The notes beneath the pieces were generated by a model that ran no database searches, had not been told where the DNA came from, and worked only from the letters and a program-made list of their open reading frames with translations. A program made the translations under genes and the position numbers. A stretch of DNA of 25,019 nt from a virus, in the IMG/VR virus record IMGVR_UViG_3300033551_000040, positions 1 through 25,019 of that record; one strand, 5' to 3'. How positions within the stretch are numbered: the first letter of the stretch is position 1; the number at the start of each line of letters is the position of its first letter. Positions 2,736 through 21,882 of this stretch are shown here, one piece after another.

Positions 2736-4349
2736 GTGCCCGTGCCCGGCCCCTCGCTGAACCTTCCGGGTCCGGGACCGTACTTCGGGCGGATCTCCTC
2801 CGGGGCCGCCGGCGCCGTCGAGGCGCCCGTCCCGCTGCAGCAGGCGGACGCGATCTCGATCGCCACGCTTGCGCTCAGCGCCGAGACCCAGGTCCCGCTC
2901 GGCACGGCGGCGGCGCAGAGCAGCGCCACGCTGGCGCTGACCGCCCCCGCCAGGGTGACGCTGGAGACGGTGACGGCCCAGTCCAGCGCTACGCTCACCC
3001 TCTCCGCCCCGGCCAAGCCCCCGCTTGAGACGGCGGCGGCTCAGAGCTCAGCGACGCTGGCGCTCTCGGCGCCGACCAGGGTTACGCTCGGGACCTCGCC
3101 GGCTCAGTCTGCCGCGACGCTGGCGCTGTCCGCGCTCACGAGGGTGCCGCTGGACCCCGCCGCAGCGGTCTCCTCGGCGACCTGCTCGGTGACGATCCCG
3201 TCCACGGCGGTCGAGGTCCCGCTCTCCGCCGCCGCCTGCCAGAGCGCCGCGACGCTCGCGCTCTCCGCGCCGACCCAGGTGCCGCTGCAGACGAGCGGGG
3301 CCACGTCGAGCGCCACGCTGGCGCTGTCCGCGACCGCCAGGGTCACCCTGGGTGCCGCCGCCTGCCTCGCGACCCCGACCCTGGCGCTCTCGGCCCCGAC
3401 CCGGGTCACGCTCGGGACGGCCGCGGCGCTCGCCACGCCGACCCTGGCGCTCAGCGCCCCCACCCGGGTCGTTCTCGGCGTCTCCGCGGCCCAGAGCGCA
3501 GCCACGCTCTCCCTCACGGCCCCGACCCGGGTCACCCTTGGCGCCGCCGCGGCGCAGAGCGGCGCCACCCTGGCACTCAGCGCGACCACGCAGGTCGCGC
3601 TTGGAGCAAGCGCCGCGGTCTGCTCGGCCACCCTGGCGCTGACATCCGGCGGCCCGACGGTCCCGCTGGCCACCGCAGCGGCGCAGAGCGCGGCCACCCT
3701 GGCGCTCCGCGCCGCGACCCAGGTGGCGCTCCAGACCGGAGCGGCGGTCCTGTCGGCGACGCTGCTGGTCTCCCGCCCGCAGCGGATCGCGCTTGGCTCG
3801 GCGGCGGCGGTCTCGACCGCCTCGCTCAGCGTTGTCATCCTCGACCCGGTCCCCGAGACGCACCCGAACCTCGGTGGAGACGTAGACGAGGTCCGGACCG
3901 GAGGCGACATCATCACCCCCGACGCGATCCCGTCCGGGCTGTACCCGCCGACCTACCCCTCGAGTTCGACGTACCCGGCGGTCAGCACGCCGTTCGACGG
4001 CCTGCCGCTCGGCGGCGACTACGACGAGGTCCTGACTGGCGGGGCCCCGGTCGGCCACGTCACCTCGGGCACCTACGACCAGGTGATCACGGGAGGGATC
4101 GTGAACGAGGTCCGCACCGGCGGCGAGCCGCGGGACACGACCGGTGGGACGCCCGACGCGGTCCCGACCGGCGGCGACGTGAACACGGTGCTGACCGGGG
4201 GCGCCGTGAACGAGGTCCGCACCGGCGGCACCTTCGACGAGGTGCTGACGGGCGGCGACGTGCAAGAGGTCCCGACCGGAGACTCGCCCGACGAGTCCGA
4301 GCGGGGCGGAACCTATGACCTGGTGCTGACCGGAGGAGAGGTCCTGTAG
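2736..4349 (+). CDS. Two-part repeat protein: about sixteen 21-residue repeats plus nonapeptide repeats
   Basis: The gene encodes 537 residues from GTG 2736 (a second GTG at 2742 is possible; GGGGCGGG lies just upstream). After a Pro/Gly-rich leader (1-31), residues 32-371 are about sixteen copies of a 21-residue unit with consensus V-x-L-x-x-x-A-A-x-S-x-A-T-L-A-L-S-A-P-T-R. Copies 6 and 13 carry insertions of 3 and 1 residues. A Pro/Tyr/Ser linker follows, then a second repeat family near residues 382-534 of nine residues, x-(V/Y/F)-(D/N)-E-V-(L/R)-T-G-G. Charge is almost absent from the first array, while the second is acidic. The regular strand-like register suggests a beta-solenoid or fibrous shaft, and position suggests a tail fibre or appendage. 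I know no named family for it. Function, oligomeric state and virion location are inferred. Confidence 0.75.
   Translation: MPVPGPSLNLPGPGPYFGRISSGAAGAVEAPVPLQQADAISIATLALSAETQVPLGTAAAQSSATLALTAPARVTLETVTAQSSATLTLSAPAKPPLETAAAQSSATLALSAPTRVTLGTSPAQSAATLALSALTRVPLDPAAAVSSATCSVTIPSTAVEVPLSAAACQSAATLALSAPTQVPLQTSGATSSATLALSATARVTLGAAACLATPTLALSAPTRVTLGTAAALATPTLALSAPTRVVLGVSAAQSAATLSLTAPTRVTLGAAAAQSGATLALSATTQVALGASAAVCSATLALTSGGPTVPLATAAAQSAATLALRAATQVALQTGAAVLSATLLVSRPQRIALGSAAAVSTASLSVVILDPVPETHPNLGGDVDEVRTGGDIITPDAIPSGLYPPTYPSSSTYPAVSTPFDGLPLGGDYDEVLTGGAPVGHVTSGTYDQVITGGIVNEVRTGGEPRDTTGGTPDAVPTGGDVNTVLTGGAVNEVRTGGTFDEVLTGGDVQEVPTGDSPDESERGGTYDLVLTGGEVL
2829..3848 (+). repeat. Tandem array of about sixteen 63-bp coding repeats
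   Basis: The DNA repeats in step with the 21-residue protein unit. Recurrent blocks such as GCCACGCTGGCGCT and CAGAGC followed by GCCACGCT recur every 63 bp. One unit is 72 bp and one is 66 bp, and both keep the reading frame. Copies differ mainly at synonymous and Ala/Ser/Thr positions, so the array is old or under selection at protein level, but it should still be prone to slippage and copy-number change. Confidence 0.85.
3879..4337 (+). repeat. Degenerate 27-bp (nonapeptide) coding repeats
   Basis: The unit is x-(V/Y/F)-(D/N)-E-V-(L/R/P)-T-G-G. Clear copies include DVDEVRTGG, DYDEVLTGG, TYDQVITGG, IVNEVRTGG, DVNTVLTGG, AVNEVRTGG, TFDEVLTGG and TYDLVLTGG, with several decayed copies between them. 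The first clear copy is separated from the main run by a Pro/Tyr/Ser linker (residues about 392-425). The spacing is nine residues from about residue 427 to the C-terminus. Confidence 0.8.
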
Positions 4350-7687: not shown

Positions 7688-8265
7688 TGCCAGATCCCTT
7701 CATCACCGCGGCCGAGCTGTCCGACTACCTCGGGCGTGACGTGGACTCCGAGCCCGCCGCCGACCTGGCGGTCGAGTTCGCCTGCGACGCCTGTCGCGAC
7801 TACGTCGGCCAGACCCTCACCGCGGGCTCGTCCTCGGTCACCCTGAACGGGACCGGGACCGACGCGCTGCTGCTCCCCGAGTCCCCGGTCGGGTCGGTCA
7901 GCTCGGTCGAGGTGCTCGACTCCGAGGGCTCCTTCCAGACCGCCGGGGCGGCGGACTTCTCGGTCAGCGGCGACGGGGTGCTCTACGCCACCAACACCGC
8001 GGGCACCGCCACCTTCGGGAGCTGCTGGCCAAGGGGGAGGCAGAACGTCCGGGTGGGCTACTCCCACGGCAACGGGACCGCCGACCTGGCCCGCTCGATC
8101 AGGGGCGTGGCGCTGACCCTGGCCGCCCGCTTCCTGGTCCAGGGGGTCGCGGCGGCGGAGCAGGTCGGCGAGGTGAACGTGCGCTACGCCGCCGAGTCCA
8201 CCGCGCTGATGCCGACCGAGCGCATCATCCTCGACGGCTACCGCCGCCACCACGGGGGATCATGA
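7687..8265 (+). CDS. Head-tail connector / adaptor protein (gp6/gp15-like)
   Basis: This 192-residue protein starts at ATG 7687, overlapping the spike's stop by one base and with no clear ribosome site, so translation is probably coupled. The pattern is that of the head completion adaptor family. A helical N-terminus (FITAAELSDYLGRDV, then DLAVEFACDACRDYVGQTL) is followed by a beta tongue (SVTLNGTGTDALLLPESPVGSVSSVEVL, then VRVGYSHG) and a C-terminal helix pair (LARSIRGVALTLAARFLVQG). Such proteins form a dodecameric ring beneath the portal. The motif order and length fit well. Its distance from the capsid gene, with about 6.8 kb of fibre genes between, is unusual. Confidence 0.8.
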   Translation: MPDPFITAAELSDYLGRDVDSEPAADLAVEFACDACRDYVGQTLTAGSSSVTLNGTGTDALLLPESPVGSVSSVEVLDSEGSFQTAGAADFSVSGDGVLYATNTAGTATFGSCWPRGRQNVRVGYSHGNGTADLARSIRGVALTLAARFLVQGVAAAEQVGEVNVRYAAESTALMPTERIILDGYRRHHGGS

Positions 8266-9650
8266 AGAGGCTCGCCCTGATCCTGATCGGCGCGCTGCTG
8301 CTCGCTGCCTGCAGCGCGGCCACCACGCCCGCCACCGACATCACCCAGACCTCGGCCAGGCTCCACGCGCAGGTCGGCTGGCAGCAGGGTGAGCAGGGGA
8401 CCTACTGGTTCGAGTACCGAGTGGTCGGCGCTCTAACGTGGCAGAAGACCCCGGTCCGCAGCTGGGGGCCGATGCAGAACTCGGCGTCCAACGTCGACCT
8501 CCCCGAGAACGTCACCGGCCTGACCCCCGCGACCAACTACGAGTTCCGCTACTGCGGCCAGATGAGCGGGGCCGAACTGTGCCAGGGGGTGCAGACCTTC
8601 ACCACCCTGAGCAGTGGCGCCTGCGACCGCAACGCGACCCCCGCCACCCTCGCTGCCGAGGTCTCAGCGGCGACGGCGGGGCAGACGGTCTGCCTCGCCA
8701 CCGGCAGCTACGGCACCTGGGGCGGGACCAACAAGGTGATCACGGTCAGGGCCGCCGCCGGGCAGACCCCGACGATGGGAATCAGCTTCGGCTCGGGGGA
8801 TCAGAGCTTCACGCTCCAGGGCGTCCGGATCACGGGCGGCTCGATCTCGAGCGGCGCCCAGAACCTCACCGTCCGCGACTCGGAGTTCACGGCCTCGCTT
8901 CAGATCACGGGGCTGGCGAACGCGAACGTCCTGCTCGACCACAACACCCACAACAACATCAACGCCCCCTCCGGCGCCCCCCCGGCGCGCATCCACCTCG
9001 CCTACGGCTCCGAGACACCCTCCGGGGTGACCGTCCGCAACTCCCTCCTGCAGGGCGGCGACGCGGACGGGATCCAGACCGGCGTCGGCCTGAGCGTGAT
9101 CAACAACGAGTTCAGCCAGATCGTCGCCGGCGGGCCCAACCACACCGACAACATCCAGATGGTGGGCAACTCGACCGGGATGGTGATCCGCGGCAACTGG
9201 GTCCACGCGAGCGCGAGCACCCAGGGCATCGCCGCCTACGACGGGCTCAGGAACGCGACGATCGAGGACAACGTCGTCGACATCCCCCGCCCCTGGGGGA
9301 TCGAGGCCTACTCCGACGACAGCTCGGTGATCCGCCACAACACGCTGGTCTACAAGCAGGTCTGCGACTTCAACCTGCCCTGCGGGATCATCTCGATCAC
9401 CCGCAAGTCCCAGGACGACGCGGGCTTCGGAACGGTGGTCCGCGACAACATCGCCACCGAGATCAGCGTCACCTCGGGCTCGACCGTCGCCGCTCAAGAC
9501 CACAACATGCTCCGTCGGTTCGTCGGCCCCAACGACTTCCTCGGCACGCCCGCGTTCCTGAACACCACCACCTACGCCGGGCACCACCTGGCGGCCGGTT
9601 CCCCCGGCAGCGACGCCGCCTCCGACGGGCTCGACGTGGGGATCCGCTAG
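8262..9650 (+). CDS. Predicted lipoprotein with FnIII-like domain and right-handed beta-helix
   Basis: This 462-residue protein starts at ATG 8262 in an ATGA overlap, with GGGGGA just upstream. The N-terminus is a type II signal peptide: basic MKR, hydrophobic LALILIGALLL and lipobox LAAC with Cys17 followed by Ser. Residues about 20-115 resemble a fibronectin III domain (TQTSARLHAQV, then VTGLTPATNYEFRYCG, ending TFTTL). From about 120 to the end there are parallel beta-helix coils with recurring N-x-x-V-R-D/G-N turns (LTVRDSEFTASL, VTVRNSLLQGGDADGIQTG, LSVINNEFS, MVIRGNWVHA, ATIEDNVVDI, SVIRHNTLVYK, TVVRDNIATE). This is the fold of pectate lyases and polysaccharide-binding proteins. No clear lyase active site was identified. 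A membrane-anchored exported protein inside the neck operon is odd. Possible roles are superinfection exclusion, a cell-surface glycan enzyme, or a virion protein with a lipid anchor. Confidence 0.8.
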   Translation: MKRLALILIGALLLAACSAATTPATDITQTSARLHAQVGWQQGEQGTYWFEYRVVGALTWQKTPVRSWGPMQNSASNVDLPENVTGLTPATNYEFRYCGQMSGAELCQGVQTFTTLSSGACDRNATPATLAAEVSAATAGQTVCLATGSYGTWGGTNKVITVRAAAGQTPTMGISFGSGDQSFTLQGVRITGGSISSGAQNLTVRDSEFTASLQITGLANANVLLDHNTHNNINAPSGAPPARIHLAYGSETPSGVTVRNSLLQGGDADGIQTGVGLSVINNEFSQIVAGGPNHTDNIQMVGNSTGMVIRGNWVHASASTQGIAAYDGLRNATIEDNVVDIPRPWGIEAYSDDSSVIRHNTLVYKQVCDFNLPCGIISITRKSQDDAGFGTVVRDNIATEISVTSGSTVAAQDHNMLRRFVGPNDFLGTPAFLNTTTYAGHHLAAGSPGSDAASDGLDVGIR

Positions 9651-10103: not shown

Positions 10104-10358
10104 ATGGAACCAGAGCCGATCAAGTACGCCTGCACGATCCAGGTCGCGGGCATCCTCCACCACTGCATCGAGGACTACGACGCCGTCCACTCGCGCCTCG
10201 TGAACTCCGACAGCCCCACCCAGCCGGTCGAGCTGATGATCGGGGCGGACTACGGCGACGACGAGGGCGGGAAGCGGCTGATCAAGGCCGCGTTCATGCC
10301 GCTCGCCATCTCGGCGGTGTTCGAGATCCCCGCCGACATCGCCAAGGTGGCGCCGTGA
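10104..10358 (+). CDS. 84-residue hypothetical protein at the head of the glycan cassette
   Basis: The start is ATG 10104, chosen because GAAGGA lies 4 nt upstream. A GTG at 10020 in the same frame would read through the repeat leader and has no ribosome site. The protein begins MEPEPIKYACTIQVAGILHHC and ends IKAAFMPLAISAVFEIPADIAKV. It has mixed alpha/beta character, is acidic and has no signal or transmembrane segment. I recognise no family. It is the first gene after the repeat leader, and its stop overlaps the glycosyltransferase start (GTGA), so it is co-translated with that enzyme. It may be a cassette accessory or a relic of the neck module. Confidence 0.65.
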   Translation: MEPEPIKYACTIQVAGILHHCIEDYDAVHSRLVNSDSPTQPVELMIGADYGDDEGGKRLIKAAFMPLAISAVFEIPADIAKVAP

Positions 10359-11524
10359 AGGTCCTCTGGCACTCCAACGGGCCGCACGCCCCCACGGGCT
10401 ACGGTCGCCAGACCGCCATGTTCGCCCAGATGCTCGCCCAGGACCACGAGGTCTGGATTAGCGCCAACTACGGGCTCGAGGCCGCGCCGCTGGTCTGGAA
10501 CGGGATCCCGGTCCTGCCGGGCCTCGGGCAGACCCACGGGAACGAGGCGCTGCCCGGCCACGTCAACGCCATGTTCAACGGTCGCGACGACGGGCTGGTG
10601 TGGACGCTCTACGACACGCCGGTGTTCGACCCGGACGTGTTCCAGAGGTTCAACGCGGCCTGCTGGACGCCGATCGACCACTGCCCCCCGCCTCCCCCGG
10701 TGATCTCGTTCTTCCGGGCTAGCCAGGCGATCCCGGTGGCGATGTCCCGCTACGGCCAGGGGGAGCTGGGCGAGTTCGACCCGCTGTACGTTCCCCACGG
10801 GGTGGACGTGGACGTGTTCAAGCCGACCGCGTCCGACGTGCGCCAGCAGATGGACCTGCCCGACGACGCGTTCCTGATCGGGATGGTGGCGGCGAACAAG
10901 GGTCGCCCGTCGCGGAAGTGCTTCCAGCAGGCGTTCGAGGCCTTCCGGATCTTCCGCAGGACCCACGAGGACGCCCACCTGTACCTGCACACCACGCTCT
11001 CGGCCAGCTACTCGGCGGGAGAGGACCTCCCGACGCTGCTGGCCTCGCTCGAGATCCCCGACGACGCGGTCAAGTACCCGAACCAGTACTCGATGATGTT
11101 CGCCCCGCTCGACGAGGCGAAGATGGCGCAGATCTACTCGGCCTGCAACGTGCTGCTGAACTGCTCCATGGGCGAGGGCTTCGGGGTGCCGATCATCGAG
11201 GCCGCCGCCTGCGGGACCCCGGCGATCGTGACCGACTTCAGCGCCATGCCGGAGGTGGCCGGGCCGGGGTGGAGGGTGAGCGGCCGACCCCACTGGACCG
11301 GCCAGTGCTCGTGGATGAGCGTCCCGGACGTGGGCGAGATGGTGGGGGCGCTCGAGGAGGCGCACGACCAGTCGGAGGAGCGCCGCTCCAGCCTGTCCAG
11401 GGAGTGCCGAGCCCACGCACTCGGGTACAGCGCCCGATCGGTGTACGACGAGCACATGGTCCCGGCGCTGGACGAGATCCAGGAGCGCATCGGGATGCGC
11501 CAGCCTGTTAGGGTGGCCGCGTGA
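10355..11524 (+). CDS. Glycosyltransferase, GT-B fold, family 4-like
   Basis: The 389-residue protein is read from GTG 10355 (GTGA overlap). N-terminal acceptor domain: KVLWHSNGPHAPTGYGRQT with the Gly-rich first loop. Inter-domain link: LYVPHGVDVDVFKP (about 144-157), the standard GT4 hinge. C-terminal donor domain: FLIGMVAANKGRPSRK (basic phosphate-binding region) and EGFGVPIIE (Glu274 to Glu282), the E-x7-E donor-sugar motif, followed by AAACGTPAIVTDFSAMPE. This is a retaining transferase that moves a sugar from a nucleotide donor to an acceptor. The length is normal for the family and all key residues are present. Donor and acceptor cannot be read from sequence. Placement among neck and tail genes suggests that the acceptor could be a virion protein, or a host glycan. 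Confidence 0.85.
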   Translation: MKVLWHSNGPHAPTGYGRQTAMFAQMLAQDHEVWISANYGLEAAPLVWNGIPVLPGLGQTHGNEALPGHVNAMFNGRDDGLVWTLYDTPVFDPDVFQRFNAACWTPIDHCPPPPPVISFFRASQAIPVAMSRYGQGELGEFDPLYVPHGVDVDVFKPTASDVRQQMDLPDDAFLIGMVAANKGRPSRKCFQQAFEAFRIFRRTHEDAHLYLHTTLSASYSAGEDLPTLLASLEIPDDAVKYPNQYSMMFAPLDEAKMAQIYSACNVLLNCSMGEGFGVPIIEAAACGTPAIVTDFSAMPEVAGPGWRVSGRPHWTGQCSWMSVPDVGEMVGALEEAHDQSEERRSSLSRECRAHALGYSARSVYDEHMVPALDEIQERIGMRQPVRVAA

Positions 11525-12264
11525 GGGTCGGCTGGCTTCAGGACGACCCCGGCTACGTCGGGGGGGCCGAGCTGACCATGGCCGAGTTCAGGTCCGCGGC
11601 CCCGCGCGGGGTCGAGGTCGTGGACTGCCCGCCGGGCGGGGTGGCCAGGTGCGACGCCTACGTGGTGGGCAACTGCCTCGGCTACGACCTAGGCGAGATC
11701 GAGGGGATGGTCAGGCGGTCGGGCACCGTGGTCCGCTACCACCACGACGTGGCCCGCGCCCCGGTGGACGGGCTGTTCACCGAGGTGCGCCGCTTCAACC
11801 GGGTCCGCCACGCGTTCTGCTCCCCGCTTCAGCGGGCGCGGATGGGGATGGAGGGGGAGCTGATCCCCCCGGCGCTGGACCTGGACCGCTTCCGCGCCCT
11901 CAGAAGCTCCAACCACCGCCACGGCGCCTGCTGCGTGGGCAGGATGGCCTACGGCAAGGGCCTGGAGCTGATCGCCGAGTACCCCGAGCCGGTGGACGTG
12001 TACAGCAGCGTGCCGGTCCGCTCGGAGCGCAGCGCTCGCTACAGGGGGGCGGCCGCGGACGTGCCCGCGACGCTGGCCCAGTACGAGAAGTTCGTCTTCC
12101 TCCCGACCGCCCTCGAGCCCTTTGGGCGGGCGGTGGTCGAGGCCTGGGCCGCGGGCCTGGACCTGGTGGTGAACCGCAACGTGGGGGCGCTGTACTGGAT
12201 CGAGTACGACCAACCGGCGCTGGAGACGGCCGCCGCGGACTTCTGGAGGCTGGTGACCAAGTGA
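11521..12264 (+). CDS. Second GT-B glycosyltransferase (short)
   Basis: This 247-residue protein starts at GTG 11521 (GTGA overlap). It is shorter than usual GT4 enzymes but keeps the landmarks. These are RVGWLQDDPGYVGGAELTM (Gly-rich acceptor loop), LIPPALDLDRFR (hinge), VGRMAYGKGLELI (Arg141 and Lys146 of the phosphate-binding site), FVFLPTALEPFGRAVVE (E-x7-E, Glu199 to Glu207) and AWAAGLDLVVNRNVGALYW. Much of the N-terminal domain is condensed, as seen in other phage-encoded GT4-like proteins. It probably acts with the enzyme upstream to add a second sugar. Substrate unknown. The missing length lowers certainty about activity, but not about fold. Confidence 0.75.
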   Translation: MRVGWLQDDPGYVGGAELTMAEFRSAAPRGVEVVDCPPGGVARCDAYVVGNCLGYDLGEIEGMVRRSGTVVRYHHDVARAPVDGLFTEVRRFNRVRHAFCSPLQRARMGMEGELIPPALDLDRFRALRSSNHRHGACCVGRMAYGKGLELIAEYPEPVDVYSSVPVRSERSARYRGAAADVPATLAQYEKFVFLPTALEPFGRAVVEAWAAGLDLVVNRNVGALYWIEYDQPALETAAADFWRLVTK

Positions 12265-12413
12265 TCGCGAGGACCGTCCCCGATGTGAGGAAGATGAAGC
12301 TCCGCTATAGCGAGCGAGAGCTGCTGGCCGAGGCCCTGAGAGACAGGCCGATGAGCCCGGACAACGCGATCGCGATCCTGACCCGACTCGGGCGGGAGCG
12401 GGCCGCCCGATGA
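12261..12413 (+). CDS. 50-residue basic helical hypothetical protein
   Basis: The frame runs from GTG 12261 (GTGA overlap) to TGA 12411-12413, which overlaps the next ATG. An internal ATG at 12294 with GAGGA just upstream would give 39 residues and is a credible alternative start. The sequence is highly charged and helical (KLRYSERELLAEALRDRP, then PDNAIAILTRLGRERAAR), with no membrane segment or metal motif. Overlaps at both ends support a real gene. No family is recognised. Confidence 0.6.
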   Translation: MIARTVPDVRKMKLRYSERELLAEALRDRPMSPDNAIAILTRLGRERAAR

Positions 12414-13033
12414 TTGACCTGATCGTCCCCACCATCGACGGGCGCGAGGACTCCCTCAAGCGGTGCCTCAGGTCCTTCCGCGCCAACACCGACGACCTGA
12501 ACGTGATCGTGGTGGCCGAGTCGAAGACCTGCGGCTGGGGCTGGCAGCAGGGGCTCGCCGCCTCCACGGCCCCCTACGTGGCCCTGGTCGCGGACGACCT
12601 GGAGTGCATCTCGCCCGCGTGGGCCGAGCGCTGCATGGAGGCGGCCGACGAGGACCTGCTCCCCTGCCCGCGCGTGTACACCCCCCGGGGCGCGATCGAG
12701 TCCCAGGGCGGCGACATGAACGCGGTCGGCCACCTGCTCAACCGCCACCGGAAGGACGGGGCGCCCTGCGACTTCACCACGGTCCCGTTCATGTCGCGGT
12801 CGCAGGCCGAGCGGATCGAGATGATCGACACCCAGTACTGCTGCGACGTCTGGGTGAGCTACCGCGGGCGCCAGCTCGGCTGCGAGACGGTGCTGCGCCA
12901 CGGCTACGACCTGGTCCACCACCAGGAGCAGGTCGGGCGCGGGGCGGGGATGGCCCAGAACGACCGCGATCGGATCGACGCCGAGGCGATGTTCCTGGCG
13001 CTGGAGTCGGGGGTGGAGGTGGCCAGTGGCTGA
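12410..13033 (+). CDS. Glycosyltransferase, GT-A fold, family 2-like
   Basis: The protein has 207 residues from ATG 12410. DLIVPTIDGREDSLKRCLRS is the classic GT2 nucleotide-binding start. VIVVAES gives the next strand, GWQQGLAASTAPYVALVADD the central helix-strand, and Asp62-Asp63-Leu64 stands where the DxD-type metal/donor motif is expected. A later HHQEQ (near residue 170) could supply the third metal ligand or catalytic base. Length is near the GT2 catalytic core alone, without a membrane anchor. Similar short GT2 proteins occur in actinophage structural operons. The gene overlaps the methyltransferase start by 8 nt. Donor and acceptor are unknown. Confidence 0.8.
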   Translation: MIDLIVPTIDGREDSLKRCLRSFRANTDDLNVIVVAESKTCGWGWQQGLAASTAPYVALVADDLECISPAWAERCMEAADEDLLPCPRVYTPRGAIESQGGDMNAVGHLLNRHRKDGAPCDFTTVPFMSRSQAERIEMIDTQYCCDVWVSYRGRQLGCETVLRHGYDLVHHQEQVGRGAGMAQNDRDRIDAEAMFLALESGVEVASG

Positions 13034-13496
13034 GTCCTACGAGATGGGGGCCTTCGGCAGCCACGTGCCGGTGCTGGAGTCGCTCAGGCCCCGGCCGAAG
13101 CGGGTGCTGGAGTTCGGCGTGGGCGACCACTCGACGAGCGCGTTCCTAAGCATGAAGTCCGTCACCCGCCTGGTCTCCGTCGAGACCGACATCGGATGGC
13201 GCGAGCGCGTCTCCAACGAGCACAGGAAGCACCTCAAGAGCGGGCGCTGGAGGCTCCTCGACGAGACCGACGAGGTGCCGCCGCTGACCGACTTCGACCT
13301 GGTCTTCATCGACGACGGGCTGCTGCCCGCCCAGCGCCACGAGACCATCGCCCGGGTGCTCGGCCAGAAGCACCCCCGGGTGGTGATCCACGACGCCGAC
13401 TACGCCCCGTATGTCGAGTCGATCGAGGCCTTCTCCTCCGACTTCAGGATCGAGGACGCCTACTCCCCCTACACCGCCGTCGTGGACGCGAACTGA
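13026..13496 (+). CDS. Class I SAM-dependent methyltransferase-like protein
   Basis: This 156-residue protein starts at GTG 13026. RVLEFGVGDHST (27-37) is a motif I E-x-G-x-G-type SAM loop. Glu53 at the end of LVSVET fits the ribose-binding acid of strand 2. DLVFIDDG (91-98) is strand 4 with its Asp, and RVVIHDAD fits strand 5. It is compact and lacks the usual C-terminal strands 6-7, so it is at the small end for a class I enzyme. The cassette context suggests O-methylation of a transferred sugar, but protein or other targets are possible. Fold call is reasonable; activity is uncertain. Confidence 0.7.
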   Translation: MAESYEMGAFGSHVPVLESLRPRPKRVLEFGVGDHSTSAFLSMKSVTRLVSVETDIGWRERVSNEHRKHLKSGRWRLLDETDEVPPLTDFDLVFIDDGLLPAQRHETIARVLGQKHPRVVIHDADYAPYVESIEAFSSDFRIEDAYSPYTAVVDAN

Positions 13497-13621
13497 TGAT
13501 CACCGGCTCCGGCTACAGCACCAACCCCTACGAGGTGGTCTGGTTCTGCCACCTGTGCGGCGTGAGCTTCGTCCAGACCCCGGGCAGCGGCGCCCACCAC
13601 TGCGGCGGGACCGGCAAATGA
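13496..13621 (+). CDS. 41-residue mini zinc-ribbon protein
   Basis: The frame runs from ATG 13496 (1-nt overlap) to TGA 13619-13621 (ATGA overlap with the next). It contains W-F-C-H-L-C-G followed 13 residues later by H-H-C-G. Cys18, Cys21, His34 or His35, and Cys36 form a plausible four-ligand zinc site. Little else exists outside the finger. Perfect packing at both ends and the metal pattern argue against chance. Function unknown; it could bind nucleic acid or a partner enzyme in the cassette. Confidence 0.6.
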   Translation: MITGSGYSTNPYEVVWFCHLCGVSFVQTPGSGAHHCGGTGK

Positions 13622-13785
13622 CCTATCAGGACCGCCACCGCATCATCGGCCCGCTGATCATCTTCCTGTGGATCTGCGTGGCGGCCACCGATGGCGGCAT
13701 GGGCTGGCTGATCGCGATCCTGCTCGTCTCCGGGTTCAGCCTGCTCGACCACCTGCGCCACCCCCCGCTGAGGGGGGTCCCGTGA
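13618..13785 (+). CDS. 55-residue two-helix membrane protein
   Basis: The frame starts at ATG 13618 and ends at TGA 13783-13785, overlapping the epimerase GTG. Two hydrophobic helices are visible: IIGPLIIFLWICVAA (about 9-23) and GWLIAILLVSGFSLL (about 29-43). The short loop DGGMG joins them, with basic or His-rich ends (TYQDRHR, then DHLRHPPLRG). It is the only integral membrane protein in the glycan cassette. It could anchor the glycosyltransferases to the membrane or present lipid-linked sugar, or it could be an unrelated holin-like or exclusion peptide. No family is recognised. Confidence 0.6.
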   Translation: MTYQDRHRIIGPLIIFLWICVAATDGGMGWLIAILLVSGFSLLDHLRHPPLRGVP

Positions 13786-14669
13786 GGATCCTGGTCACGG
13801 GTGCCGAGGGCTTTGTCGGCCAGCACCTCTGCGCCGAGCTTCAGACGGCGGGTCACGACGTGCGCCCCTCAGACATCGGAGACCACGACCTCTCGGTGCC
13901 CGACGAGGCGAGGGACCTGGTGATCCAGACCCGCCCCGACTACGTCGTCCACCTGGCGGCCCGCTACGGGCGCCTGCTCTGCCGCGACGAGCCCCACCTG
14001 GCGGTCAGCGACAACACGGCCTCGACCACCGAGCTGGCGGCGGAGTGCGCGCGGTGGGGGACCCCGGTCCTCTACGCCTCCTCCTCAGAGGTCTACGGCG
14101 ACCACGGCACCGCCACGATCCGCGAGGACTCCGAGCTCAGGATGCCGACCACGATCTACGGGCTGTCGAAGCGCTGGGGCGAGGAGGCCCTGCGGCTGTA
14201 CGTGGAGCACGAGAACCTGACCATCGTCCGGATGAACATGCTCTACGGCCCCGGCCAGCTCGGCGGGTACGGGCGCTGCTCGCTGGCCACGTTCATCGAC
14301 AGCGCGGTCCGCGGCGAGCCGTTCACCGTCCACCGCAACACCTCCCGCTCGTGGCTCTACATCGCCGACGCGGTGCGGGCGCTGCGGCTGCTGATCGAGG
14401 GGGAGTTCTACGGGACCTTCAACCTCGGGAACCCGGCGCGGGCGTGGCCGATGGAGACGATCGCCGACGAGGTCAAGAACCAGGTGAGGCTGTTCCGGGA
14501 GTGCCCCGACCCGATCGTCGAGGACCCGCCCGAGGGCCAGATCCCGCACAAGAACTACGACGTGACCCACCTGCTCGGGATGGTCGACTGGGTCCCCGAG
14601 GTCGGGCTCGCGGAGGGGATCACCGCGACGGTCGCGTGGGCCCGCGCGAAGGCGCAGGTGACGGCATGA
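13782..14669 (+). CDS. NAD(P)-dependent sugar epimerase/dehydratase (extended SDR)
   Basis: This 295-residue protein starts at GTG 13782 (GTGA overlap). RILVTGAEGFVGQHL is the Rossmann T-G-x-x-G-F-V-G cofactor loop. VVHLAARYG is the conserved strand 4 end, ASSSEVYG supplies the catalytic Ser (100-102), and Tyr126-x3-Lys130 (in IYGLSKRWGEE) is the active-site pair. MNMLYGPGQ and SWLYIADAVRAL are the substrate-domain landmarks of NDP-sugar epimerases and dehydratases. It interconverts a nucleotide sugar (a 4-epimerase or 4,6-dehydratase type reaction), presumably supplying the donor for the transferases just upstream. All catalytic residues are intact and length is standard. The exact substrate cannot be deduced. 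Confidence 0.85.
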   Translation: MRILVTGAEGFVGQHLCAELQTAGHDVRPSDIGDHDLSVPDEARDLVIQTRPDYVVHLAARYGRLLCRDEPHLAVSDNTASTTELAAECARWGTPVLYASSSEVYGDHGTATIREDSELRMPTTIYGLSKRWGEEALRLYVEHENLTIVRMNMLYGPGQLGGYGRCSLATFIDSAVRGEPFTVHRNTSRSWLYIADAVRALRLLIEGEFYGTFNLGNPARAWPMETIADEVKNQVRLFRECPDPIVEDPPEGQIPHKNYDVTHLLGMVDWVPEVGLAEGITATVAWARAKAQVTA

Positions 14670-15315: not shown

Positions 15316-15738
15316 GTGGCTGTCAATCCCCGCGTCTTCAAGGACGCATTCGTCTCGGTCAACGGGACCAACATCAGCGCGTACTGCAGCGCCGCGACCG
15401 TGGAGTCCACGTTCGAGGAGCTCGACTCCACCACGTTCGGCGGCAACTACCGCCAGTTCACCCAGGGTCTCGGCGACGCCACGATCACGCTGACCACGTT
15501 CCCGGACACCACGGGCACGGTCAACTCGATCTTCTGGCCGCTGTCGCAGTCCGGGGGCACGTTCGCCCTGATCGTCCGCGAGTCCTCGGCGGCCGCGAGC
15601 ACGTCGAACTACAACTACTCGATGAGCGCCTCGCTGTTCGGGTTCAACCCGATCGGCGGCGCGGTCGGTGACCTGATGAGCACGGACATCCCGTGCCGCA
15701 ACGCCGGCACCGCGGGCCTGACCCGAGGCACCACGTAG
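15316..15738 (+). CDS. Major tail (tube) protein
   Basis: This 140-residue protein starts at GTG 15316, 6 nt after a strong GAGAGGAG. It follows the siphophage tube-subunit pattern: FVSVNGTNISAYCSAATV (first strands), ELDSTTFGGNYRQFTQGL (the conserved T-T-F-G plus G-L hinge), ATITLTTF, a central SIFWPLSQSGGTFALIVRE strand, and a final YNYSMSASLFGFN. It has the basic tube-domain size, without an extra Ig-like domain. It polymerises into the hexameric rings of the tail tube. It has its own leader and strong ribosome site, as expected for a high-copy virion protein. Confidence 0.85.
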   Translation: MAVNPRVFKDAFVSVNGTNISAYCSAATVESTFEELDSTTFGGNYRQFTQGLGDATITLTTFPDTTGTVNSIFWPLSQSGGTFALIVRESSAAASTSNYNYSMSASLFGFNPIGGAVGDLMSTDIPCRNAGTAGLTRGTT

Positions 15739-15819: not shown

Positions 15820-16320
15820 ATGGCGCGCTCTACCAAGGATGCTGTCCTGAAGGGGCCCGGCGACCTGGCCACGGCCGAGGTCGTCACGGACGTCCCGAAC
15901 CCGGGCGACACGTTCCTGGTCCGCGGGCTGCCCGCCGCGTACTCGAACCAGGCGTCGAGCGAGGCGCTGAAGATGACCACGGTCGGCCTGGACCAGATCG
16001 CCACCGTGGACACGGCGCGGCTCGAGGTCCTGCAGTTCGCCCACGGGGTGGTCGAGCCCACGTTCACCGTCGACGAGGCCCAGCAGGTCTCCGAGAAGTA
16101 CGGGCCGATGTTCCGCAAGGTGATCACCAAGATCGACGAGCTGTCGGGGGTCAACAAGGAGGCAATCACCGAAGCGACGGCCAAGTTTCCGCGCAGCGGA
16201 GCGAGCGAGAATGGGGCAGACCTGGGTGATGGAACTCCCGCCGGGGGTGATGGACCCGATGTTCACCTACGAGCTGGCGGAGAGCCTCCACATGACGGTC
16301 CAGGAGATGCTGACCGGTGA
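15820..16320 (+). CDS. Tail assembly chaperone, upstream (G-like) frame
   Basis: ATG 15820 with AAGGAGG is clear. The zero-frame product is 166 residues, but only about the first 125 look natural. These include VLKGPGDLATAEVVTDVPNP, TFLVRGLPAAYSNQASSEAL and a helical FTVDEAQQVSEKYGPMFRKVITKIDELSGVNKEAI. After about residue 126 it turns into a Gly/Pro/Asp-rich tail (GDGTPAGGDGPDVHLRAGG) over the stretch where a second frame encodes the better-looking protein. Position between tail tube and tape measure and the overlapping second frame define the classical G/GT pair. The chaperone coats the tape measure during tail assembly and is absent from mature virions. Confidence 0.8.
   Translation: MARSTKDAVLKGPGDLATAEVVTDVPNPGDTFLVRGLPAAYSNQASSEALKMTTVGLDQIATVDTARLEVLQFAHGVVEPTFTVDEAQQVSEKYGPMFRKVITKIDELSGVNKEAITEATAKFPRSGASENGADLGDGTPAGGDGPDVHLRAGGEPPHDGPGDADR
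16124..16320 (+). other. Chaperone frame-overlap window with candidate +1/-2 frameshift sites
   Basis: Both chaperone frames are open only between 16124 and 16320, so any shift must lie here. Candidates are TTT-C at 16186-16189 (tRNA-Phe could re-pair with TTC), CCC-G at 16237-16240 (CCC to CCG slip), GGG-G in the G-run at 16146-16150, and the GGGGGTGA run at 16243-16250 for a -2 event. AAGGAGG at 16156-16162 is a strong internal Shine-Dalgarno-like sequence that might pause ribosomes. Confidence 0.5.
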
Positions 16321-16441
16321 GCCCGGCATGTCCGCCCACGAGTTCTGCGTGGGGTGGCCGACCTACCACCTGTTCAAGAACCGCGCCCGGAAGCGGGCCG
16401 AGGACAAAGAGAGGCAGAGGATGCAGCGCAGGCGCCGTTGA
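16211..16441 (+). CDS. Tail assembly chaperone, downstream (T-like) frame
   Basis: The frame is open from 16124 (after TGA 16121-16123) to TGA 16439-16441. ATG 16211 is the first ATG, with a weak GGAG at 16198-16201. The sequence looks real: VMDPMFTYELAESLHMTVQEML, then MSAHEFCVGWPTYHLFKNRARKRAED with a basic C-terminus. The T part of other phages is expressed only as a G-T fusion by ribosomal frameshift. Here T is in the +1 (equivalently -2) frame relative to G, so the common -1 shift cannot produce it. Independent initiation at ATG 16211 is the alternative. Confidence 0.7.
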   Translation: MGQTWVMELPPGVMDPMFTYELAESLHMTVQEMLTGEPGMSAHEFCVGWPTYHLFKNRARKRAEDKERQRMQRRRR

Positions 16442-16465: not shown

Positions 16466-16792
16466 ATGACCCTCCACTCCCGATTCAACGTGATCGCCGC
16501 CCACCTCGACGAGGCCGTCGACCTGGCCATGCGCCAGCTCGCCGAGGAGGTGGTCACGGGCGCCAAGTCCCGGGTGCCGGTGGACACCGGGAAGCTCCGG
16601 GACGCAATCCACATTGACCACCGCGACGACGGGGAGTACGCGATCGTGGCCGGGGACACGGACGCCTGGTACGGGCACATCGTCGAGCACGGCGGGACCA
16701 AGACCCCGCCGCACCCGTTCCTGATCCCCGCCGCCGAGGCGGCGCGCCAGCACATCGACGACCGGGTGCGCTACGCGCTGAGGAACATCTGA
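16466..16792 (+). CDS. HK97 gp10-like neck/tail completion protein
   Basis: This 108-residue protein has the unmistakable HK97 gp10 family signature. It shows a helical start, then AKSRVPVDTGKLRDAIHI (the V-D-T-G-x-L-R core), EYAIVAGDTDAWYGHIVEHGG (the Y-x-x-x-V-E-x-G-T motif), PPHPFLIPAAE (the P-F-L-x-P-A motif) and a C-terminal helix. Members act at the head-tail joint or in tail completion. It normally lies between the head closure and tail terminator genes. Here it sits after the tail chaperones, directly before the tape measure. ATG 16466 has no ribosome site and follows a strong hairpin, and the next gene overlaps it by one base (TGATG). Confidence 0.85.
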   Translation: MTLHSRFNVIAAHLDEAVDLAMRQLAEEVVTGAKSRVPVDTGKLRDAIHIDHRDDGEYAIVAGDTDAWYGHIVEHGGTKTPPHPFLIPAAEAARQHIDDRVRYALRNI

Positions 16793-19700
16793 TGGCCACC
16801 CCCGCCGCAATCCTCGAGACCATCGTCAAGGCGAACACGGCGCCCGCGACCAGGGAGCTGCGCCAGTACGACAGCTACCTGAGGCGGGTCGACAAGTCGT
16901 CGGTCTCCACCACGGCCCGGACCAGGACGCTGGGCAAGGCCACCGGGGCGGTCGGGTCCAGGATGGCGTCGGCTGCCCGCTACGCCGCCGGGGCCGCGCT
17001 GGCCTACGTCTCCATCGCCCAGGCCAAGACCGCGGTCACCACCACCCAGGACCTGGCCAAGACCACGGCGGGGCTGAACCGCAACCTTGGGTTCACGGTC
17101 AAGGAGGGGAGCCGCTGGGCGTCGGTGGCCAAGTCCCGCGACATCGACGCCAAGGCCCTGACCATGAGCTTCACCACCCTCTCGCGCCGGGTGGTCGAGG
17201 CGGGCCACGCCATCCGGGAGGGCGGGGGCGCGGCCGAGTCGGCCATGGTCCCCTTCACCCGCCTCGGCCTGAGCCAGAGGGACGTGCTGAGCGGGTCCAA
17301 GGACCTCGACTCCTTCCTGCCCAAGCTGGCCGACTCCTTCGGCAAGGCCGAGGGCGGGGCGAAGCGCCAGGCGTCCGCCCAGCAGCTGCTCGGGCGCGGG
17401 TACGCCACGATCCTGCCGCTGTTCGCGGACGGGGCGGAGGGCCTGAAGGAGCAGCAGAAGTGGGCGGACAAGTACGGGACCACGCTGAACGAGAAAACCC
17501 TGAAGGCGCAGATGGACCTGGTGTCGGCGCAGCGCGAGACCAAGGTGGCCTGGCTCGGCATCCAGGTGACGTTCGCCAAGTTCGTCACCCCGGCGCTGGA
17601 GAAGGCGAACGACGAGTTCCAGAAGATCGCGGCGATCATGGCCGACGACAAGCTGACCAGCGACGAGAAGTGGAAGCAGGTCGGCGAGATCATCATGAAG
17701 TGGGCGACCAAGGCCAAGGACGCCTTCATCGAGATCCTGCCCAAGCTGGTGGAGGCGGCGGGGAAGGCGGCGCCCGAGATTGCCGGGGCGTTCGTCAAGG
17801 GCTTCCTGAACGCGCCGATCCTCGGCCAGCTGCTGCTCGGGGGCTGGCTGCTGTCCAAGATGGGCGGCCTGGGGGCCGTCGGCAAGATGGGCACCACGGT
17901 CGGGACCCGCTTCGCCACGGCGTTCAAGGGCGCGGCCGTCCTGGTCATCGGGTCGGGGCTGATCGCCGGGATCAGCGGGGCCCTGGGCAAGCGCAACATC
18001 CCCGGCATGGGCGGGCTCGAGGAGTCCCTCAACGACGCGGGGGTCAAGATCGGGCAGCAGTTCGGGCTCTCGCTCGGGCGCTCGACCGCCGAGCGGTTCA
18101 GCGACATCTTCCAGGACAACATCCGGACGGTCCTGCGCGGCGGCGGGGCGCTCAGCGGGCTGTCGATCACCGACGCCGCCGGGGTCACCGGGCCGATCAT
18201 CAGCCGCGAGCACGCGGCGGAGCTGGCCCGCCAGTTCATGGACACGACCAGCGTCTCGCTGAGGGTCGCGGGGGTGAGCGCGGAGACCCGGTTCAACGAG
18301 GTCTGGGACGGGCTGGCCCCGGACGAGAAGCGCCTGGCCCGGCAGATCAACTCGGCGGTCAACGCGGCCAACAAGCTCGCGGTCAAGACGGGGATCGACG
18401 TCCCGGCCCGCGTCCTGGAGGTCGACCCGCAGGCGTCCGCCAAGGGCCTGAGGACGCTGTCGTCGAACCTCAACCTGCTGCGGTCGGGGTCGCTGACCAA
18501 CATGAAGGACATCCAGAAGGTCTTCCGCGACACCGCCAAGGTGATCCGGACGGTCCTGCCGCGCGGGTCCGACGAGGCCCGGAGGGCGATGGCGGAGAAC
18601 AACCGCGCCACCGTCGAGGCGATCCGCAAGAGCTGGGACAACGGGGCCAAGCGGACCAAGGAGGGGATCGCGCACGTCCGCCAGCTGATCCGCCAGGCCA
18701 ACCTGATCGAGGGCATCCACCCCGAGAAGTTCGGCCGGGGCTTCGCCGACATGTTCGCCGAGGCGGGGAGGATCACCAAGGGCGGGATGGACAGCGTCCT
18801 CAAGCAGCTCGGGCGGATGCCCGAGGGCGCCCGCAAGGAAGCCTTCCGGGCGATGAACGAGCAGCTGCGCGAGCTGAAGCGGGGCGGCGTCCTCAGCGGC
18901 AACGAGATCCGCGACTTTCGGTCCAGGGCGCTGGCCGAGTACGAGGACCTGCGCAGGCGGGGGACCAAGTCCTCCAAGGGCCTGGCCGACGGGGTGGCCA
19001 GGAACTTCTCGTCGCTGAACGCGGCGATCAACTCCGGCCTGGAGAACATCGCCCAGAACACCAACAGCGCCCTCAAGGCGTTCGGGGTCAAGCAGATGTC
19101 GTTCGCGATCAACGACCGCCCCAACGACTCCTTCGGCGGCCACCAGACCCACCAGGCGGGCGGGATGATCTACTCGGTGCCCGGCTACGGCACCGGCGAC
19201 AGGGTCCCGGCCATGCTGGAGCCCGGCGAGGTGGTGGTGAACCGCAGGGCGGTCGCGGCCATGGGCGGGGCCGACCGGGTCAACTCGATCAACTCCATGA
19301 TCCCGCGGTTCGCCAGGGGCGGCAAGGCGGGCAGGGGGTCGTCCTCGATGGACGCGATGGTGGCCCTGACCAACAAGTACGAGCAGGCCCACTTCCCCTA
19401 CCTCTGGGGCGGCGGCCACCAGGGGTTCGTCAACGCCAGCTCCCCGGTGGACTGCTCCGGCTTCGTCTCGGACGTGCTCCACGCGGGCGGCCTGCTGGAC
19501 GGCGCCCCGATGGTCTCCGGCGCGCTGGCGAGCTGGGGCCAGCCCGGCACCGGGCCGCTGACGGTCTACGCGCACTCGGGCCACACCCTGCTGTCGCTGG
19601 GCGGGAACTTCGCCGGGACCTCCAGCTCCAACCCCGGAGGGGGCGCGGGCTGGATCGAGGGCGGGCTGAGCGCGGGCTACCTGAGCGCGTTCCAGAAGCG

Positions 19701-21882
19701 GACCGCGGACGTCACCGGGGCCGTCGGCGCCATGTTCGGCGCGGCGGCGGAGAAGATCAAGCGCGAGGTGCTCGAGGGCCCGAAGGGGCCGCTCAGGGAC
19801 CTGGGCCAGAAGTCGCTCGACAAGGTGCGCGGGGCGGCCAACAAGTACATCGCCAAGAAGATGCCCTCGGGCACCCTCGGCGGCGGCGACGCGCAGGTCT
19901 CCGACGCCGTGGCGGTCAGCGGGGGCGTGTCCAAGCCCGACATGCGGGCGCTGCTCAAGGCTCACGGGATGCCGAACTGGACGGGCTGGATCGCCATGGC
20001 CGAGTCGGGCCTCGACCCGACCGCGGTCTCCTCCGCCGGGGCCCGCGGGCTGTTCCAGATCATGCCGTTCTGGGGCGGCGGCGACCAGCTGTTCGACCCG
20101 AACTACAACGTGGCCAAGGCGCGTGAGATCCTCAGCGAGCAGGGGCTCAGCGCCTGGGAGCCCTCGCGCAACGCGGGCCACATCCCCGAGGGCTGGGGGC
20201 CGCACCAGGGCCAGGCGTTCGCCAGGGGCGGGATCGCGCAGGCGAAGCAGGCCAACCGCCCCTCGATCGGCGGTGGCGGCGGGCGCCTGCCGAACTTCTA
20301 CCGCAACTACCCGAAGTTCGCCGAGTGGGGGCTGAGGCAGGGCGAGTGGGACCAGGACTTCGGGGTGGGGGTCAGCGCGTCCAACTGGTACCACATGCTC
20401 GACGACTACGCCGACGCGCGCCGCATCGACCCCCAGAAGCTGCGCCGGATGCACGGGCTGTCGTCCACCCAGGCGTCCCACTTCAAGTGGATCAACGCGT
20501 GGGAGAACGGGCAGATGAGCCTCCAGCGCGGCGGGATTGCGCAGAGGTTCGCCGGGGGCGGGATCGTGCGCGACTTCCTCGACAGCTGGAGCGCGGCCGA
20601 GGGGGGCAAGGGCGACCAGCGCGAGGCGCTGAGCAGGGCCCGCAAGGAGGTCAAGGGCCTGGACCTCCCGGGGATGGTCGGGGCCGAGCTTGGCGAGAAG
20701 CTCCAGAAGCTCCAGGACGAGCAGCTGCGCTACGAGGAGTACGCCAGCAACGCCGCGGGGCTGGCCTACGAGGACGAGAGGGGGAACACGGTCGAGCCCC
20801 CCTTCAAGGGCCACTCGGAGCTGGAGTGGCTGGGCGGCACGTTCAAGGAGACGGGCTTCCGCGGGCGGCTCCAGGCGCTGCATGAGTTCCGCAACAGGCT
20901 GGCCCAGTCGCTGAAGGGCGCGGACAAGATCCGCGACCTGATCGACAAGCTGATGACCCAGGCGACCAAGCGCCTGCGCGACCTGCGCCGAACCATCCGC
21001 GACGCCGAGAAGGACCGCCGCGACCTCGAGGAGGCGATCGCCGACGCGACCGAGAAGAAGGAGAAGTCGGAGAAGGCGATGCAGGCGCGCCTCGATCGGG
21101 AGCTCCGCAAGGACCCGAAGGACCAGAACGATGACCTGATCGCGTCGCTGCGCGAGGGCATCCACAAGAAGTCGACCGAGAAGGCGGCGCTCCAGGACGC
21201 GCTCAAGAAGCTGAACCAGAAGCAGGCGGCCCGCACCGCGCTCAAGGACGCGCTGGCGCTCGGGTCCGGGGGGCTGCTGCAGACCCTCGGCGACCAGCGG
21301 CGCGAGATCAGCGAGGCCACGACCACCCTGACCGACGAGCTGACCAACGTCCAGGGCGCGGGCGGCCCGCTCAGGGGGACGATCAAGGACCTGCCCCCGC
21401 TCGGCGAGCTGGGCGGCTACATCTACGACGTGCAGTCGCGGCTGACCGAGATGGGGCGGCCGGACTCCACCACGTCCACCGACACGTCGGAGGGGCTGCA
21501 GTTCCAGATCGACGAGCTGGCCCGCCTGCTGCGCGAGGCCAACCAGCGAACCGCCGTGTCGCAGGCGCAGTACGGGGTGTTCGCCGGGACCCCGGTGCTC
21601 GGTGCCTTCGCCAAGGGCGGGCCGGTGGGACGCAGCGGGATGTACCTGGTCGGCGAGCGCGGCCCCGAGATCGTTGGGCTGCAGCAGGGCGCCGAGGTCC
21701 ACTCCGCCCCCGAGAGCGCCGCGATGATGGAGGCGGCGGGGGCCACGGTGATCGTCAACGGGGACATCATCAACACGCCCCCGGGCAAGCAGGCGATCGA
21801 GGTCCAGGGCGCCCAGGCGATCGTTCAGAAGGGGTCACGTGGCTACGGTCGGCGCCCGCTCGGGAGCGCAAGGGGCTACTAG
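16792..21882 (+). CDS. Tape measure protein with NlpC/P60-type peptidase and lytic transglycosylase domains
   Basis: 1696 residues from ATG 16792. The N-terminus (1-330) is helical tape region with ALTMSFTTLSRRVVEAG. Hydrophobic segments near 340-405 (GQLLLGGWLLSKMGG, then GAAVLVIGSGLIAGISGAL) may insert in the membrane. Residues about 857-960 form an actinophage-type Cys/His peptidase domain: YLWGGGHQGF, PVDCSGFVSDVL with Cys888, and HSGHTLLSL with His928/931, ending GGGAGW. Residues about 1045-1130 are an SLT/goose-lysozyme-like transglycosylase with WIAMAESGLDP (Glu1071) and GARGLFQIMPFW. A charged coiled coil spans about 1380-1490, and GMYLVGERGPEIV near the C-terminus is a common tape measure ending. 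It sets tail length (roughly 1.5 angstrom per residue in known phages would give about 250 nm) and helps DNA cross the peptidoglycan. Confidence 0.9.
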   Translation: MATPAAILETIVKANTAPATRELRQYDSYLRRVDKSSVSTTARTRTLGKATGAVGSRMASAARYAAGAALAYVSIAQAKTAVTTTQDLAKTTAGLNRNLGFTVKEGSRWASVAKSRDIDAKALTMSFTTLSRRVVEAGHAIREGGGAAESAMVPFTRLGLSQRDVLSGSKDLDSFLPKLADSFGKAEGGAKRQASAQQLLGRGYATILPLFADGAEGLKEQQKWADKYGTTLNEKTLKAQMDLVSAQRETKVAWLGIQVTFAKFVTPALEKANDEFQKIAAIMADDKLTSDEKWKQVGEIIMKWATKAKDAFIEILPKLVEAAGKAAPEIAGAFVKGFLNAPILGQLLLGGWLLSKMGGLGAVGKMGTTVGTRFATAFKGAAVLVIGSGLIAGISGALGKRNIPGMGGLEESLNDAGVKIGQQFGLSLGRSTAERFSDIFQDNIRTVLRGGGALSGLSITDAAGVTGPIISREHAAELARQFMDTTSVSLRVAGVSAETRFNEVWDGLAPDEKRLARQINSAVNAANKLAVKTGIDVPARVLEVDPQASAKGLRTLSSNLNLLRSGSLTNMKDIQKVFRDTAKVIRTVLPRGSDEARRAMAENNRATVEAIRKSWDNGAKRTKEGIAHVRQLIRQANLIEGIHPEKFGRGFADMFAEAGRITKGGMDSVLKQLGRMPEGARKEAFRAMNEQLRELKRGGVLSGNEIRDFRSRALAEYEDLRRRGTKSSKGLADGVARNFSSLNAAINSGLENIAQNTNSALKAFGVKQMSFAINDRPNDSFGGHQTHQAGGMIYSVPGYGTGDRVPAMLEPGEVVVNRRAVAAMGGADRVNSINSMIPRFARGGKAGRGSSSMDAMVALTNKYEQAHFPYLWGGGHQGFVNASSPVDCSGFVSDVLHAGGLLDGAPMVSGALASWGQPGTGPLTVYAHSGHTLLSLGGNFAGTSSSNPGGGAGWIEGGLSAGYLSAFQKRTADVTGAVGAMFGAAAEKIKREVLEGPKGPLRDLGQKSLDKVRGAANKYIAKKMPSGTLGGGDAQVSDAVAVSGGVSKPDMRALLKAHGMPNWTGWIAMAESGLDPTAVSSAGARGLFQIMPFWGGGDQLFDPNYNVAKAREILSEQGLSAWEPSRNAGHIPEGWGPHQGQAFARGGIAQAKQANRPSIGGGGGRLPNFYRNYPKFAEWGLRQGEWDQDFGVGVSASNWYHMLDDYADARRIDPQKLRRMHGLSSTQASHFKWINAWENGQMSLQRGGIAQRFAGGGIVRDFLDSWSAAEGGKGDQREALSRARKEVKGLDLPGMVGAELGEKLQKLQDEQLRYEEYASNAAGLAYEDERGNTVEPPFKGHSELEWLGGTFKETGFRGRLQALHEFRNRLAQSLKGADKIRDLIDKLMTQATKRLRDLRRTIRDAEKDRRDLEEAIADATEKKEKSEKAMQARLDRELRKDPKDQNDDLIASLREGIHKKSTEKAALQDALKKLNQKQAARTALKDALALGSGGLLQTLGDQRREISEATTTLTDELTNVQGAGGPLRGTIKDLPPLGELGGYIYDVQSRLTEMGRPDSTTSTDTSEGLQFQIDELARLLREANQRTAVSQAQYGVFAGTPVLGAFAKGGPVGRSGMYLVGERGPEIVGLQQGAEVHSAPESAAMMEAAGATVIVNGDIINTPPGKQAIEVQGAQAIVQKGSRGYGRRPLGSARGY

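Follow-up and report, generated by a model that had tools for sequence, protein, structure and literature searches.

A conserved TTT-C codon as the probable site of programmed +1 frameshifting in a family of phage tail assembly chaperones

Tailed phages produce the G and T parts of their tail assembly chaperones by shifting −1, −2 or +1, and HSTV-2 is described as a very likely +1 case in passages of PMC5009743. Which of these routes, if any, serves a virus whose T frame lies at +1 relative to G, and what in the sequence would direct ribosomes along it? The question is posed by IMG/VR record IMGVR_UViG_3300033551_000040, of which positions 1 to 25,019 were analysed as a single stretch of 25,019 nucleotides (hereafter the window), and in which a pair of overlapping frames stands between the gene for the major tail protein and that for the tape measure:

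15316-15738, + strand: major tail protein, upstream of G (PHROG 4574, E 8e-13).
15820-16320, + strand: G-like tail assembly chaperone, zero frame, ATG start, 166 aa (from the list of open reading frames; PHROG 344, E 4.8e-8).
16186-16189, + strand: proposed shift site TTT_C, zero-frame TTT CCG, +1 reading TTC CGC (TTT in 42/42 homologues).
16187-16441, + strand: T-like domain, +1 frame, from the point at which shifted ribosomes would enter it; the whole open frame is 16124-16441 (placed by the offset in homologues; T of relatives matches PHROG 337).
16227-16229, + strand: TGA closing the −1 frame before T (from the reading-frame listing).
16466-16792: small HK97-gp10-like ORF (Neck1/tail completion) separating T from the tape measure gene.
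16792-21882, + strand: tape-measure-like ORF with an SLT transglycosylase domain, second gene after G/T (PHROG 8125; PF01464).

An earlier reading of the window, made from its letters alone (the sequence-only reading), had described G- and T-like chaperone frames, with T lying at +1. Both parts of that description hold: the frame listing places T at +1 relative to G with an overlap of exactly 16124-16320, the match to PHROG 344 supports the identity of the pair, and the same offset recurs in all 42 distinct homologues. Membership of the lambda-type G / G-T tail assembly chaperones is the best explanation of the two frames. The T frame of the window itself has no PHROG match, and those of three relatives (3/3 tested) match PHROG 337, ‘tail protein’, with E from 8e-7 to 3e-4. 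Slippage by −1 cannot yield a fusion, since the −1 frame stops at 16227-16229, short of T; the same reading had excluded −1 on account of this TGA, which it placed one base off at 16226-16228. Across 37 distinct sequences the −1 frame closes 6-44 codons past the site.

Several observations on the surrounding genes stand apart from this question. The gp10-like ORF sits after T in the window, and in the homologous locus L003 a gp10-like ORF, as judged by eye, precedes the major tail protein. Amid the virion structural genes, at 10358-14669, lie genes for glycosyltransferase and nucleotide-sugar epimerase (PHROG 2170 and 540), and Microcystis phage Mae-JY09 likewise carries a glycosyltransferase between its capsid and head-tail genes. 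A 537-aa ORF at 2736-4349 is built from SATLALSAPTRVTLGTAA-type repeats followed by GGDYDEVLTGG-like repeats, and the ORF at 8262-9650, among the head-tail connector genes, has a lipoprotein-like signal (LLLAACS, by eye), possibly a beta-helix body, and no PHROG match. No tRNA gene was found within the window.

Homologues were gathered by scanning a viral contig collection with G and T queries. In all, 128 loci were examined, the window included; L006 (the window itself) and L010 (the −1 phage P1312, reached in a different way) had already been set aside and do not count towards this number. Profiles for G and T were built from alignments, that for T beginning at the DP-x-F core and hence being blind to the junction. 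Both parts were recognised in 125 of the 128 loci; L005, L128 and L129 were examined and fall outside the 125, their G being unrecognised by the profile. Many of the 125 are overlapping fetches of the same contigs, so the usable counts are 42 distinct sequences, or 31 clusters at 80% nucleotide identity, with G identity to the first member ranging over 33-71% in a 20-member alignment. Codon, parsimony and start-codon counts refer to 37 distinct sequences, five having been added later. T lies at +1 in every one of the 125 loci (42/42 distinct sequences, 31 clusters). The search was able to find −1 arrangements, for the T scan also returned L129, which by eye is −1 with an A_AAA_AAG heptamer; L005 is also −1 by eye. 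In L128, on a 65 kb contig, T lies at +1, again by eye, and the sequence TTT CGC GGT TCC TGA at 1985-1996 resembles the halovirus motif; this is a second chaperone family. No relatives were found in genome contigs.

What do these divergent sequences hold in common where the frames overlap? TTT-C at 16186 had been one of several candidate slip sites in the sequence-only reading, and the homologues single it out: the column of 16186-16188 carries an in-frame TTT in 42/42 distinct sequences, followed by C in 41 and by T in one (L080). Conservation of G in the zero frame extends as far as this phenylalanine, residue 123 in the window. TTT is otherwise a rare choice, for the remaining phenylalanine codons of G in 37 sequences comprise 102 TTC and 6 TTT (of 108), and TTT makes up 7/200 phenylalanine codons in the window ORFs counted. 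Since TTC would encode the same residue of G, the needs of the zero frame give no reason for the fixed TTT. On the tree of 37 sequences the four bases of TTT-Y required 0, 0, 0 and 1 parsimony changes, against 7-15 at four-fold sites upstream. A two-state simulation on that tree (pi 0.12, mu 2), with a mean of 2.4 changes to be compared with the 3-9 seen at two-fold pyrimidine columns, left all 37 tips as TTT in 0/20,000 runs; the probability is larger at lower rates or higher T frequencies, rising to 0.18 at pi 0.5 and mu 0.25. The codons on either side are under no such restriction. The A-site codon is CCG in 21 of the 42 sequences, CAG in 8, CGA in 4, CCA and CCT in 3 each, and CAA, CAC and TCG in one each, and the E-site codon preceding TTT is also free to vary in the 37. 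The conserved element is thus UUU_Y.

The same site marks a change in the frame under constraint. Beyond it the +1 frame opens a conserved block, F-x-x-A....R.G..W.M.L...DP.F..ELA, while the zero frame there varies in both sequence and length, its stop falling, over the 37 sequences, 66-153 bases (22-51 codons) past the T that opens the site. Zero-frame third positions account for 163/293 changes on the tree over a block of 60 bases whose end lies 21 bases short of the site, and for 70/151 in the 21 bases from there to the site. Once the +1 alignment begins, the same phase takes 47/181 changes over the opening 30 bases, fewer than either of the other two, and 15/115, 31/163 and 24/159 in three later blocks. 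Constraint therefore switches frame at or very near TTT. Aligning the homologues for codon conservation in both frames was the check that had been suggested from the sequence alone, and it puts the end of zero-frame conservation at this codon or close beside it.

We consider it highly probable, judging from comparative sequence evidence, that the two frames are joined by programmed +1 frameshifting at UUU_C to give a 206-aa G-T fusion. The event would be a ribosomal one. During translation of AAG UUU CCG, a minority of the ribosomes that hold tRNA-Phe on UUU in the P site would slide one base forward, the anticodon re-pairing with UUC (or, in the L080 variant, slipping from UUU to UUU), and would continue in the +1 frame with CGC GCA GCG. 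Most ribosomes would make the 166-aa G and the shifted ones the 206-aa fusion, with the predicted junction ...EATAKF-RAAERAR.... By analogy with lambda, the G part would bind the tape measure and T would recruit tail tube subunits.

The best-surviving alternative is that T is a separate protein started within the overlap, by re-initiation or from a weak Shine-Dalgarno sequence, for which two start codons come into question:

16211-16213, + strand: ATG proposed by the sequence-only reading as an independent start of T (ATG in the same column in 3/37).
16229-16231, + strand: another ATG inside the T frame that might serve as a start (equivalent ATG in 29/37).

The first of these, put forward as a way for T to be translated independently, finds no support in a column that so seldom carries ATG. 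The second is common, and its Shine-Dalgarno pairing is weak (mean −5.5 kcal/mol), slightly stronger than a background of −3.6, with G starts averaging −8.7, so that some free T may also be made. Such a minor product is possible and does not account for TTT; as the sole source of T, an internal start appears unlikely. L080 has no ATG, GTG or TTG, and L015 no ATG, between the site and the T core; the +1-frame residues upstream of both ATGs are conserved, with F, A and R fixed or almost fixed; and the invariant TTT would be left unexplained. A −2 shift, of which phage Mu offers a precedent (described in passages of PMC5009743), would reach the same frame with one extra residue. It is less probable still: once moved back, tRNA-Phe would face two bases from the codon before TTT, and these vary in the 37 sequences; nor does the site hold a run of one repeated base. 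A forward step of one base is accordingly the direction that we favour. That the offset is a sequencing or assembly error, or the relic of a decayed gene, is a reading we give virtually no weight, although the window is a contig from a metagenome collection, because the same offset recurs in 42/42 distinct sequences, both halves are conserved as protein, and the stretch is matched in two other IMG/VR contigs (2 mismatches in 4590 bases; 0 in 6498), with none of the mismatches in the chaperone gene; identical and divergent homologues together rule out the indel that the sequence-only reading had named as fatal to its proposal. Transcriptional slippage was rejected, a run of only three T probably being too short for it.

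If ribosomes do slip forward at UUU_C, is the codon assisted by other elements nearby? Two were considered:

16196-16198, + strand: GCG, 10-12 bases beyond the T that opens TTT (its bases kept in 37/37, 37/37 and 36/37; changes 0, 0 and 1).
16156-16162, + strand: AAGGAGG, 23 bases upstream of TTT (in 28/37).

The third base of GCG, although four-fold degenerate when read in the +1 frame, is nearly invariant in the 37 sequences; Mae-JY09 has no GCG downstream of its site. Within AAGGAGG the lysine codon is AAG in 35/35 and the glutamate codon GAG in 30/30, never AAA or GAA, a mild excess over other lysine and glutamate columns. The motif had been flagged as one that might matter to recoding, a suggestion left without support by its distance from the shift codon and its absence from 9/37 sequences; on those grounds it was rejected as a close Shine-Dalgarno stimulator, which it probably is not. 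The slip on UUU_Y may nonetheless be helped by the fixed GCG or by the upstream AAGGAGG. No adjacent stop or close Shine-Dalgarno sequence was seen at the shift site, and a search for downstream RNA structure in 24 representatives of the 37 gave mean z scores of −0.28 (60 bases) and −0.39 (90 bases) and no consensus fold. The A-site codon CCG is not rare: its frequency among the window ORFs counted is 26.5 per 1000. Since a rare A-site codon, an adjacent stop, a close Shine-Dalgarno and an RNA structure signal are all missing, the efficiency of the shift may be low. The other slip sites that had been proposed for the window fared poorly: in both L003 and L009 the in-frame CCC of CCC-G (16237-16240) reads GCC and the two G-runs (16146 and 16243) are interrupted, so all three were rejected.

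Named phages supply a natural control. Against a phage collection, tblastn with the G and T of the window returned nothing, as did the queries L051 G, L013 G, L128 G, L021 T and L065 T; L003 G gave two weak matches, among them Thermobifida phage P1312, whose chaperone turned out to be −1. A distant member of the family, L127, in which the site reads TTT CGA GAC TGA with T at +1, then linked it to nine named phages (12 records). In eight of them (P1312, Madraxi, Jflix2, REQ1, Shagrat, Dubu, phiSASD1 and Edmundo) T lies at −1, the sole +1 among the nine being Microcystis phage Mae-JY09 (PP395641.1). Seven of the eight −1 phages were aligned, Edmundo not being among them. Their phenylalanine codon in the site column, where present, is TTC (5/5; Dubu and phiSASD1 are gapped there), which together with the −1 position of T sets them apart from the present family; the +1 relatives Mae-JY09 (TTT CCT) and L127 both have TTT in that column. 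In Mae-JY09 the chaperone G and T (PP395641.1:15519-16071) are annotated as two hypothetical proteins with no frameshift marked, and with T at +1 beside TTT CCT a G-T fusion has probably been overlooked by the annotators, to judge from its sequence. No paper on Mae-JY09 was found among openly licensed papers. A broader proposition, which we regard as evenly balanced, is that UUU_Y by itself serves as a recurrent +1 signal of phage tail chaperones, one that works with neither a rare codon in the A site nor a stop beside it and with no nearby Shine-Dalgarno or RNA fold, and that related lineages switched between −1 and +1 as the same phenylalanine codon changed between TTC and TTT.

The gene itself is an ordinary one; the predicted slip forward is of an uncommon kind, and the comparative evidence for it is good. 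Frameshifting by +1 at UUU_C is already known, and what is new here is its apparent use in a large family of uncultivated phages and in Mae-JY09, with a free A-site codon and a distant stop. The site is kept across a wide range of such phages, and the freedom of the A-site codon, together with −1 relatives as a natural control, offers a clean test of what +1 slippage needs on bacterial ribosomes. A simple search rule follows, namely an in-frame TTT-C near the end of G with T at +1, which would find chaperone fusions whose halves are now listed, like those of Mae-JY09, as two hypothetical proteins.

How, then, does the locus compare with known frameshift systems? With lambda G/GT and other −1 chaperones it shares its gene position and a fusion by frameshift, and the G of the named relatives is homologous, whereas the −1 chaperones that use tandem slippage place T at −1 behind a heptamer and here T lies at +1 in 42/42 sequences. 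Mu-type −2 shifting needs re-pairing two bases back, and here those two bases vary. The prfB type relies on a close Shine-Dalgarno and a stop in the A site; here AAGGAGG lies 23 bases off, and the A site holds no stop. Listeria PSA, which had been cited in the sequence-only reading as a documented +1 case, is not a chaperone precedent: in PSA, A118 and A500 the +1 shift on CCC is in the tsh and cps genes, for tail-shaft and capsid proteins (passages of PMC5009743). These are likewise programmed +1 shifts in phage structural genes, but they concern the major tail or capsid protein and a proline codon beside a stop or pseudoknot (PMC5009743), and the window's own CCC-G is not conserved. The same reading had supposed that few +1 cases are documented, and forward shifts in annotated tail chaperones are less rare than that implies, 350 of 2,718 positive slippery sites being forward in one actinophage data set (PMC10274946).

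The UUU_C sites of influenza A PA-X and of the HF1-group haloviruses, as passages of the respective papers present them, make better precedents. Slippage of tRNA-Phe on UUU_C is the model for PA-X, at UCC_UUU_CGU, where the shift was shown by its junction peptide and a wider class was predicted (PMC3498833), and plant amalgaviruses use UUU_CGN (PMC5052127). What they have in common with the present site is a forward step of tRNA-Phe in the P site from UUU onto UUC, proposed here; they differ in having eukaryotic ribosomes, other genes and an A site restricted to CGN (PMC3498833, PMC5052127). Here UUU_C is conserved and CGN fills the A site in only 4/42 sequences (all CGA), the window having CCG; the site would thus work like the PA-X class and not as the narrow UUU_CGN motif. 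In the HF1 group, TTT-CGC was proposed as the +1 site of the tail chaperone (PMC7230728), and among passages of openly licensed papers no other tail chaperone with a proposed TTT-C +1 site was found. The resemblance is close, with a chaperone pair before the tape measure, T at +1 and a rare TTT followed by C in a conserved stretch; the haloviruses are archaeal myoviruses known from six related genomes, with CGC in the A site near a stop (PMC7230728), whereas the present case is a different family in which, over 42 distinct sequences, the A-site codon is free and the stop lies 22-51 codons on. Mae-JY09 shares with the family a homologous chaperone, T at +1 and TTT at the same column, and the family as a whole reads as an instance of the UUU_C +1 class that the PA-X paper predicted.
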